From NCBI GenBank assembly GCA_946893605.1, contig OX335598.1, positions 558,001 through 622,000 of the forward strand: DNA of 64,000 nucleotides, given 5' to 3'. Source of the DNA: Candidatus Saccharimonadota bacterium. GTDB lineage: Bacteria > Patescibacteriota > Saccharimonadia > Saccharimonadales > Saccharimonadaceae. Shown piece after piece: positions 8,894 to 16,955 of this stretch. The translations under genes and the position numbers were made by a program. Below the pieces are notes generated by a model. That model did no database searches. It was not told the origin of the DNA and saw nothing but the letters and a program-made list of their open reading frames with translations. Numbering within the stretch: position 1 is the first letter of the stretch; every line of letters begins with the position of its first letter.

Positions 8894-9535
8894 TTAGCGC
8901 GTAACTCTTACGAAATTAATAGTTTTTCCTTCGCCAATCCACCTTTGTTCGTAAGTCGTCATTATTTTATATTCGTCACTTAGCGTGGATTCGTGAAGGT
9001 CAAAACTCAGCTCCTTAATTTGCCATTTTTCTGACACTAATTGCTCCAAGCTCCAACAGAAAAAACTGTGATCGTCGTGTTTGATTAATAAAGATCCGTC
9101 CGGTGCCAACAATGAAGAATACTTCTTCAAAAAATTAGGATGAGTCAAACGGCGTCCAGCGCTATGCTTCCTTGGGAACGGGTCAGGAAATGTTACCCAA
9201 ATTTGCTCCAAAGAATTCTGCTCCACTAATTGGTCTATTTGGTCAGCCCGCGCTCGAACGAAAAACACATTCTCCAGCCCTTTTTCTTCAGCAATTTTCG
9301 CGCCCTTCTGCAATCGATCGCCTTTCACGTCAATTGCTAAAAACGTCTTTTCGGGATGGTGCAGTGCAAGCTCCACGCTGAATAGTCCAGTTCCAGCACC
9401 GATTTCCAAGCAATCGACTTCCCGCTTTATCCACTCGTCAAACTCAAAACATAGAGGTGAATTGTGAAATAAAGCGAATTTATACTTCTTACGTTTTCTG
9501 GTGATAATAAATTGATTCGGATCGACAAAACTCAT
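8894..9535 (-). CDS. trmB: tRNA (guanine-N7-)-methyltransferase TrmB
   Basis: Makes m7G46 in the tRNA variable loop using S-adenosylmethionine. 213 residues. SAM motif DCLEIGAGTGLFSVELA near residues 41-57, acidic DVKGDRLQKG, and the family signature IWVTFPDPFPRKHSAGRRL. It ends in the usual EQRWIGEGKTINFV stretch. The TATAAT on the minus strand (9543-9548) ends 7 nt before the ATG, so it is likely leaderless, and it shares this element with divergent mscS. Confidence 0.94.
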   Translation of the reverse strand: MSFVDPNQFIITRKRKKYKFALFHNSPLCFEFDEWIKREVDCLEIGAGTGLFSVELALHHPEKTFLAIDVKGDRLQKGAKIAEEKGLENVFFVRARADQIDQLVEQNSLEQIWVTFPDPFPRKHSAGRRLTHPNFLKKYSSLLAPDGSLLIKHDDHSFFCWSLEQLVSEKWQIKELSFDLHESTLSDEYKIMTTYEQRWIGEGKTINFVRVTR

Positions 9536-9542
9536 ATTTTCT

Positions 9543-9550
9543 ATTATACT
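9543..9550. promoter_or_regulatory. Symmetric bidirectional -10 element between trmB and mscS
   Basis: ATTATACT reads TATAAT on the minus strand (9548-9543) and TATACT on the plus strand (9545-9550), overlapping by four bases. Transcripts would leave in both directions 7 nt before the trmB ATG and 9 nt before the mscS ATG. Confidence 0.7.
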
Positions 9551-9559
9551 AAATCAATA

Positions 9560-10462
9560 ATGGATAAGCTTATAAAACAGTTCTTAGATTCTTCGACGTT
9601 AGGTCAATGGCTGCATGGCAATAACCTTGGCTGGTTGATTAGTGAGCGCATTATCGACACGATCAGTATTATTATCGGCTCTGTTTTTGTTTATTTTCTG
9701 GGGAAATATTTATTATCTTGGACTATCCATTATTCTATACGCTCCACCGCTAAACATCGTTCCTGGCACCGTAAAGACATAGAAAAGCGCGAAAAAACTC
9801 TCATCCAATTAACTCGCAGTTTCTGGCAAATCATAATAATTTTCTATGTCGCCGCAATTGTCGCCAATAAACTATTTCTATTTGATTTATCGCCACTATT
9901 CGCTAGTGCTGGTATAATCGGTGTGGCGTTAGGATTTGGCGCCCAATCACTCGTTAAGGACTTCTTGTCTGGTATTTTCATCATCGCCGAAAATCAATAT
10001 CGTGTTGGCGATGTCGTTGACGTAATGGGAGCTGCTGGAACCGTCGAGAGAGTCGGCACTCGCACTACTGTTATACGAGATTCTGAGGGTAATGTTCATT
10101 ATGTTCCAAATGGCACGATTCAGCACGTTATCAATAAAACTATGGGCTATAGTATGTCACGCTTTAGCATTTATATCGACCCAAGTTCTGACATTTCTGC
10201 AGTTACAGACATCATTAACGCTACTGGTCAAGAATTGGCTAAAGAAAAGGCTTGGCAAAAGAAAATTATCGATCCGCCTAAATTCGTTTCCGTTGGTGAT
10301 ATTACTGGACGAGGAACAGAATTGATCATTGCCGGAAAAACTCAGCCATCAGATCAGTGGTCTGTTACCTCTGAAATGCGACATCGATTGTTACAAAACT
10401 TTGATCGCGAAGGAGTTCTTCTGGCGACTCTGCCGACCCCAACCTCAATAACCAGAAGATAA
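9560..10462 (+). CDS. mscS: MscS-family mechanosensitive channel
   Basis: Releases solutes on hypo-osmotic shock. About 300 residues from the ATG at 9560. Three membrane segments, the last being the pore helix ASAGIIGVALGFGAQSLVKDFLSG, whose Gly/Ala pattern is diagnostic, then the beta domain (QYRVGDVVDVMGAAGTVERV, VPNGTI) and a C-terminal alpha/beta domain. An open frame extends upstream to 9512, but it crosses the -10 element, so the ATG at 9560 is preferred. Confidence 0.93.
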   Translation: MDKLIKQFLDSSTLGQWLHGNNLGWLISERIIDTISIIIGSVFVYFLGKYLLSWTIHYSIRSTAKHRSWHRKDIEKREKTLIQLTRSFWQIIIIFYVAAIVANKLFLFDLSPLFASAGIIGVALGFGAQSLVKDFLSGIFIIAENQYRVGDVVDVMGAAGTVERVGTRTTVIRDSEGNVHYVPNGTIQHVINKTMGYSMSRFSIYIDPSSDISAVTDIINATGQELAKEKAWQKKIIDPPKFVSVGDITGRGTELIIAGKTQPSDQWSVTSEMRHRLLQNFDREGVLLATLPTPTSITRR

Positions 10463-16209: not shown

Positions 16210-16262
16210 AGTTTTATTGTACCGCATTCCGTGCTATACTTACTAGAGTAAATGGAGGTAAA

Positions 16263-16955
16263 ATGAATAAGAAAAGCTGGATAATTTTCGCAATTATTGT
16301 AGTGGCGATTGTTGGTGGAATGGTTTATATTTCGACACAAAATCGATTAAATATTAGCGATATCAATAACGATCAGCTGAACACGGCTATCAGCGCAGAA
16401 TCAAGAAATGGTAATATCGCGGATCATGAAATTGGCAGCAAAGACGCCAAAGTAACAATTATCGAATACGCCGACTATCAATGCCCTGGCTGCGGCACCG
16501 CTGCACCAAAAGCCGAAGCGCTAGCTAAAAAATATAAAGATCACGTTCGATTAATTTTCCGTAATTTCCCAATTGCTAGCTCACACCCTAACGCACGAGC
16601 TGCCGCTGCCGTGGCTGAAGCTGCCGGCTTGCAAGGTAAATTCTGGGAAATGAATGAGCTTCTATATGCAAATCAGGACGCTTGGAAAAACGCCAACACT
16701 ACAGAACGCGACAACATTTTCAAATCTTATGCTGAACAATTGAAGCTTAATATCGATCAATATAAAACCGATATTGCCAGCAACAAGGTTAAAAATAAAA
16801 TCGACTTCGATATGGCTCTCGGTCGCAAGCACGGCGTTGCCGCAACACCAACTTTCTACATAAATGGAAAAAATACTGAGATGGACAGCTCTGGCTCAAT
16901 TGAATCATCAGTCAAGGAAGCCTTGAAAAAAGCTGGCGTTGAAGTAAAAGATTAA
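16263..16955 (+). CDS. DsbA-family membrane-anchored thiol oxidoreductase
   Basis: 230 residues. N-terminal membrane anchor (residues 6-24), then a thioredoxin-like DsbA domain with active site Cys74-Pro-Gly-Cys77 and a cis-proline loop GVAATPTFYING. It probably oxidises or isomerises cysteines of exported proteins. The start at 16263 follows GGAGG with 5 nt spacing; an extended -10 (TGC-TATACT, 16228-16236 region) lies upstream and is divergent to the CBS gene promoter. A strong terminator follows. A second DsbA-like protein is at 38678-39394. Confidence 0.9.
   Translation: MNKKSWIIFAIIVVAIVGGMVYISTQNRLNISDINNDQLNTAISAESRNGNIADHEIGSKDAKVTIIEYADYQCPGCGTAAPKAEALAKKYKDHVRLIFRNFPIASSHPNARAAAAVAEAAGLQGKFWEMNELLYANQDAWKNANTTERDNIFKSYAEQLKLNIDQYKTDIASNKVKNKIDFDMALGRKHGVAATPTFYINGKNTEMDSSGSIESSVKEALKKAGVEVKD

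Follow-up and report, generated by a model that had tools for sequence, protein, structure and literature searches.

A shared -10 element predicted to serve divergent, putatively leaderless trmB and mscS genes in Saccharibacteria, and the recurrence of this layout in the family

The window analyzed here, a stretch of 64,000 nt, belongs to a genome (G000) that consists of one contig of 701,908 bases, is rated 83% complete and has Candidatus Saccharibacteria as its seven closest named relatives. Two of its genes lie back to back: trmB, encoding a tRNA (guanosine46-N7)-methyltransferase of 213 aa on the minus strand (8894..9535), and mscS, encoding a mechanosensitive channel of the MscS type of 300 aa on the plus strand (9560..10462). 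Both names, given by an earlier sequence-only reading, hold, with TrmB scoring above the cut-off of the NCBIfam profile NF001080 and the channel carrying three Pfam MS_channel domains, although it stays under the cut-offs of the NCBIfam MscS models. Gene starts were taken from ORFs rather than from a trained caller. The trmB frame, which begins at the CAT of 9533-9535, has no ATG, GTG or TTG 5' of the annotated start. The mscS frame, with its ATG at 9560-9562, is open upstream as far as a TTG at 9512, and in the related genome G006, a stop seen by eye just upstream in this frame leaves the ATG as the sole start.

The divergent spacer, ATTTTCTATTATACTAAATCAATA (9536..9559), has 24 nt and holds the symmetric core ATTATACT (9543..9550). 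On the minus strand, this core provides TATAAT (9548-9543), 7 nt from the ATG of trmB, and on the plus strand, TATACT (9545..9550), 9 nt from the ATG of mscS, both hexamers having the 4 bp of TATA (9545-9548) in common. These correspond to overlapping, near-symmetric -10 elements on opposite strands, each with the TANNNT motif about 6-9 nt 5' of a start codon. Direct reading of the DNA bears out the positions, distances, four-base overlap and 24-base spacer described earlier. By eye, no Shine-Dalgarno sequence is found on either strand of the spacer, and no -35 is recognizable on its trmB side, a candidate for mscS being TCGACA (9522..9527, plus strand), 17 bp 5' of TATACT and within trmB codons 3-5. 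The TGn of an extended -10 is absent in the window, where TAT and TAG stand before the two hexamers. The TATA overlap makes such an element impossible on both sides because the base at -2 of each hexamer lies opposite the final T of the other and must therefore be A.

From the 7-nt gap, the trmB start site is predicted at 9535..9536 (minus strand), that is, at the A of the ATG or 1 nt earlier, and from the 9-nt gap, that of mscS at 9557..9560 (plus strand); by this spacing, the divergent start sites would be 21-25 bp apart. The base at -18, a T in bidirectional promoters as Warman and Grainger define them, would be T for a trmB start at 9535 and A for 9536, and for mscS, T for 9557, 9558 or 9560 and C for 9559. 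Then, of the earlier claim that both mRNAs are leaderless, the trmB part stands as a prediction from the gap of 7, and the mscS part has to be relaxed to a leader of possibly 0-3 nt, given the gap of 9.

Such gaps are common in this genome. A G000 sample made of the window and 12 stretches of 20 kb offers 269 ATG starts that could be used. Of these, 29 have a -10-like hexamer (any of 13 TATAAT variants) at a gap of 6 nt, 19 at 7 nt, 7 at 8 nt and 10 at 9 nt, 65 in total. About a quarter of the sampled starts thus carry one, against 0.35-0.63% per gap and ~2% over gaps 6-9 for the control of 1424 internal in-frame ATGs. The 9-nt gap of mscS falls on the margin of this peak, with 10 of the 65 matches. 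A similar excess is observed in all ten other genomes of the order, at 40 kb each, being 13-31% of the starts compared with 0.5-3.4% of the controls. This peak at gaps 6-9 across genome and order suggests that transcripts beginning at the ATG, driven from a -10, are a normal mode in the lineage. In a logo of 64 leaderless promoters, counting those of both trmB and mscS, the hexamer is preceded by TGn (T 77%; G 66%, at -2), and a weak TTG stands 17 bp upstream. Another short divergent spacer in the window, of 35 nt (16227-16263), has TATACT and then GGAGG before its plus-strand gene, which is apparently a leadered Shine-Dalgarno gene in the same genome.

For promoter scoring, a matrix was derived from 62 leaderless promoters, the trmB/mscS pair being excluded, and 260 bp upstream were scanned. 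The shared site ranks first both ways, with 9.1 in the mscS direction and 10.0 in the trmB direction, the next-best scores being 6.1 and 5.6 toward mscS and 3.0 toward trmB. The 6.1 site is a TATTAT with a gap of 12 to mscS that overlaps the shared core, and the 5.6 site is a GATAAT deeper in trmB, with a gap of 51. The finding that would have told against a single element, separate promoters inside the opposite genes, was sought by this scoring within 260 bp, and none better was found in the window; because all the next-best scores fall below the shared site, the sequence does not favor it.

The spacer was also compared with that of relatives, many of them fragmented genomes and the named ones mostly MAGs. 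Among nine same-genus genomes, TrmB is found in eight, one copy being a fragment at the end of a contig, and MscS in seven, the two genes being divergent neighbors in seven of the nine. These seven form a series, with an 8-bp core in four (the window's genome included), a 10-bp core in two and separate elements in one. ATTATACT is identical in G000, G005 and G007, and G006 has AGTATACT, a perfect palindrome matching it at 7 of 8 positions. The 10-bp core ATGATACACT, with a 2-bp overlap, is that of G008 and G001. In G003, a spacer of 59 nt contains two separate -10 elements, each exactly 7 nt from its ATG, that of mscS being TATACT on its own. The 8-bp core is conserved near synonymous saturation: among G000, G005, G006 and G007, identity at the four-fold sites of trmB and mscS is 26-51%, and despite this, the core is 8/8 or 7/8 identical across them, being kept also in G007, whose sampled stretches have 55% GC. 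The check on relatives that the sequence-only reading had proposed thus gives a conserved core in G005, G006 and G007.

In G008 and G001, the trmB-side -10 scores 0.2 and -0.2, respectively, and a TATGAT with a gap of 12 to mscS outscores TACACT; this TATGAT could be the mscS -10 instead. If TATGATA is used in these genomes, the geometry would be the 18-bp one, with a short mscS leader. In a further relative (L077), TATACT stands 7 nt before a GTG start of mscS with TG in front, and the trmB-side hexamer is TATAAC. Its spacer also contains a 19-bp inverted repeat, TTCTGTTA-TAC-TAACAGAA, spanning the mscS -10. The candidate -35 TCGACA is also present in G005, G006 and G007, at 17 bp from TATACT (18 in G006), and the valine at trmB codon 4, inside TCGACA, is GTC in all four genomes including G000, where GTC accounts for 17% of the Val codons of the sample. 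As GTC is commoner in trmB plus mscS of the other three (12/42 in G005, 8/44 in G006 and 16/40 in G007), this support is weak, and the conservation is only suggestive of a -35, coding constraint being an alternative.

A second locus of this kind, found by pattern search and ORF check, is pepN (Peptidase_M1) opposite a GmrSD_C/HNH-type gene. The HNH-type gene is present in 9/9 same-genus genomes and pepN adjoins it in eight, the two not being adjacent in G006; the -10 elements are fused in four of the eight adjacent pairs and separate in the other four. In G000 and G002, the fused core is ATTATAAT, flanked by a gap of 6 nt toward either gene, and in G005 and G007, it is AGTATACT, with gaps of 6 and 6. 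Separate elements are found in G001, G003, G004 and G008, in the last merely 3 bp apart. Considering both loci, the fused state was observed in G000, G002, G005, G006 and G007 alone. Where the elements are separate, a TG is seen by eye for mscS in G003 and for pepN in all four cases, yet trmB of G003, also with a separate -10, has none by eye. The pepN copy of the window's genome (L146, G000:C1 near 381098) is frameshifted, its product continuing in other frames, which reflects either an assembly error or a pseudogene; the G002 copy is open over the 424 codons available. Also, a single in-frame TGA and TAG interrupt conserved matches in the HNH-type gene of G008 (L235) and in mscS of G033 (L027), likely by sequencing error or as pseudogenes.

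How often the layout occurs in the genus was approached from divergent pairs and from sequence patterns. Among 69 divergent pairs sampled from 11 genomes, with longest ORFs no more than 150 bp apart, leaderless -10 elements are found on both sides in 11, on one side in 32 and on neither in 26. Two of the 11 are shared (trmB/mscS twice) and nine separate; trmB/mscS of G005 was left unscored in this survey, probably owing to a trmB frame that stays open a long way upstream. The pattern CAT-N6-9-ANTATANT-N6-9-ATG matches 20 distinct genus sites, and this strict 4-bp type has ORFs of at least 60 aa on both sides at 10 of them, a count that includes the G000 pepN copy, broken after 112 codons. A looser 4-bp-overlap pattern, ATNATANT, gives ORFs on both sides at 5/30 sites. 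For the 18-bp type, one of 36 sites examined out of 40 is flanked on either side by ORFs of 60 aa or more (three of the four excluded are also of the 4-bp type, two of these being pepN/HNH, and the fourth was entered as 23-bp type). The 2-bp-overlap type is both-sided at 6/39 sites, two of them trmB/mscS, and the other four look spurious or look to have other promoters. Raw counts are of little use without the ORF test because the first symmetric pattern gave 34 matches versus 29 for the swapped-codon pattern, its backwards control giving 8.

Two candidate pairs were set aside. In a murT-like/132-aa pair (G000 and G002), matched by the 23-bp pattern, the right gene has, by eye, its own TATAAT 6 nt before a second ATG; this spacer was also scored as separate in the survey of divergent pairs, with a different start for the left gene. 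A trhO-like/141-aa pair of G008 fits two non-overlapping -10 elements too and was excluded from the shared ones. Moreover, two more of the 20 genus sites with the ANTATANT pattern place a MutY-like ORF, so named by eye, across from a conserved ORF of 57 aa. In G005 and G007 (L239 and L243), the 57-aa ORF is back to back with the MutY-like gene across CTAGTATACTAG; it is probably a membrane protein and may be a missed small gene.

Across 61 genomes of the family, the pattern has 97 matches versus 38 for its backwards version. Seventy of the 97 were examined (28 and 42 loci), five others being the G000 and G007 sites. With A[GT]TATA[AC]T cores, ORFs of at least 80 aa are present on both sides at 27/48 sites, on one side at 18 and on none at three, and with other cores, on both sides at 1/22. 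As a baseline, random CAT/ATG pairs spaced in the same way are both-sided in 9/764 cases, these 764 sites being drawn from the G000 sample and ten relatives (704 kb in all) rather than from the 61 family genomes. The comparison of 27/48 with 9/764 gives a Fisher p of ~8e-30, a value that ignores the kinship of the genomes. The 28 both-sided family sites are spread over 18 of the 61 genomes and, together with six genus sites, make 34 sites between 24 distinct gene pairs. By Pfam names, fused pairs include msrB/msrA, a peptide-chain release factor with an Asp/Glu racemase, a D-Ala-D-Ala ligase with an MgsA-type ATPase and a uracil-DNA glycosylase with a pterin-binding enzyme; in another, a dUTPase faces a neighbor that is MazG-like by eye, with no Pfam match at 1e-6. 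Outside the class, 3/30 examined sites have ORFs, or frames open to the edge of the stretch, on both sides. The trmB/mscS spacer is then one case of a layout that recurs in the family.

At the both-sided family sites, a 6-nt gap is favored (40/56, with a pattern allowing 6-8), and in 48/56 directions, no position within 200 bp looks more promoter-like than the shared site, a figure that is partly circular because sites were picked for TATANT cores. Their discriminators (L246-L315) favor AGA, with A in 37, G in 35 and A in 43 of 56, and AGA on both sides makes the 14-bp near-palindrome TCTAGTATACTAGA. A preference for C at position 5 of the fused elements was considered as well; with 38/56 half-sites versus 11/22 single TATANT promoters, drawn from four family genomes, there is no clear difference.

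Bidirectional promoters are described, in the Warman and Grainger papers on Salmonella (PMC10268837) and E. coli (PMC12825309), with start sites 7-25 bp apart, 18 being the commonest distance and 10 and 23 common; there, opposing polymerases exclude each other, with little competition at basal activity, and on the Salmonella chromosome (PMC10268837), such promoters occur preferentially between divergent genes. As predicted for trmB/mscS, one short near-symmetric -10 serves both strands, and the range reported there includes the 21-25 bp predicted here. In contrast, both trmB/mscS mRNAs are predicted to be (near-)leaderless, so the promoter would make up the whole intergenic region, and the overlap is the 4 bp of TATA, which the 7-bp rule converts to 21 bp, compared with their commonest distance of 18 bp. 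Leaderless genes with a -10 adjoining the ORF are described in Zheng 2011 (PMC3160421) and in a Deinococcus-Thermus study (PMC12340547), where, like here, TANNNT stands a few bases before the start with no Shine-Dalgarno sequence; about one third of D. radiodurans genes are given as leaderless in the latter, compared with the quarter or so of sampled starts in G000. Saccharibacteria are reported to be transformable with reporters (PMC10633639). In term searches of the accessible text, "divergent" is absent from both papers, Saccharibacteria and Patescibacteria are absent from PMC12340547 and TM7 is absent from PMC3160421. In the open-access literature on leaderless genes in Saccharibacteria, TM7, Patescibacteria or the candidate phyla radiation, or on leaderless genes with bidirectional promoters, the layout was not found among the matches listed, which is weak evidence of absence; "leaderless" appears in PMC7441243, PMC6851277 and PMC12641178 as reference-list entries, plus a remark on YchF in PMC12641178. 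The layout is one of known parts, in a combination and geometry that recur in the family.

The 24-nt spacer is very probably a bidirectional sigma70-type promoter between two (near-)leaderless genes, one shared -10 being the best-supported reading, and we infer from the sequence that it fires both ways. The self-complementary TATA in ATTATACT would let RNA polymerase bind in either orientation, with TATAAT directing it to trmB and TATACT to mscS. Since each discriminator abuts a start codon and runs straight into it, the trmB mRNA would be leaderless and that of mscS leaderless or with at most 3 nt. Each gene would have its upstream promoter contacts within the first codons of the other, and a single polymerase could occupy the shared site at once, so that competition between trmB and mscS would be expected only if initiation is frequent. 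The layout probably arose by compaction of the spacer, which would have merged two back-to-back leaderless promoters at the price of the TGn extended -10 on both sides.

It could be argued that the site fires trmB alone, mscS being transcribed with a leader from a weaker promoter inside trmB and TATACT being a by-product of symmetry. In fact, 6/64 leaderless -10 elements bear a -10-like hexamer on the opposite strand in the same 4-bp overlap, so symmetry by itself is no proof of firing, and the GATAAT at a gap of 51, with its 5.6, would be available for mscS. Nonetheless, that internal site scores below the shared one and consists of conserved trmB codons, mscS has no preceding Shine-Dalgarno-like sequence by eye, and TATACT is kept in G005, G006 and G007 and also occurs alone, with a 7-nt gap, in G003, all of which makes transcription of trmB alone unlikely.

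The palindrome could instead be an operator for a regulator of both genes and not (only) a -10, a very improbable reading with which the perfect palindrome of G006 and the inverted repeat of L077 would agree; a core that recurs in 24 distinct gene pairs is better explained by a core promoter, and the preferred 6-nt gap (40/56) also speaks against an operator. Least credible of all is a chance TATA in a short AT-rich spacer: symmetric matches are cheap because TATA is self-complementary, but -10-like hexamers at gaps 6-9 both ways have a frequency of just 0.36% in Markov 24-mers and 0.57% in real intergenic ones from the sampled genome, and conservation near synonymous saturation, even in G007 with 55% GC, together with the enrichment across the family, argues against coincidence.

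Beyond the bidirectional promoter itself, it is conceivable, though rather doubtful, that the family uses the palindromic -10 as a standard device for pairing genes, where mutual exclusion would tie their expression and the 4-bp overlap (21-bp) geometry would have prevailed over the 18-bp one of E. coli because it allows each start codon to coincide with a start site. If this is true, the device would in some cases join functionally linked pairs, such as msrA/msrB or the dUTPase with its MazG-like neighbor. The layout also suggests that the position of the -10 could be used in annotating start codons of Saccharibacteria. Finally, if the shared promoter is real, the trmB/mscS spacer would be near the most compact boundary possible for two leaderless genes, 20-25 nt of pure promoter, and one found repeatedly in a bacterial family whose genomes are reduced. 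Moreover, the fused and separate spacers, with half-fused ones at trmB/mscS, would be a natural series on the origin of bidirectional promoters, which could address what the loss of the extended -10 costs and whether sharing couples expression.
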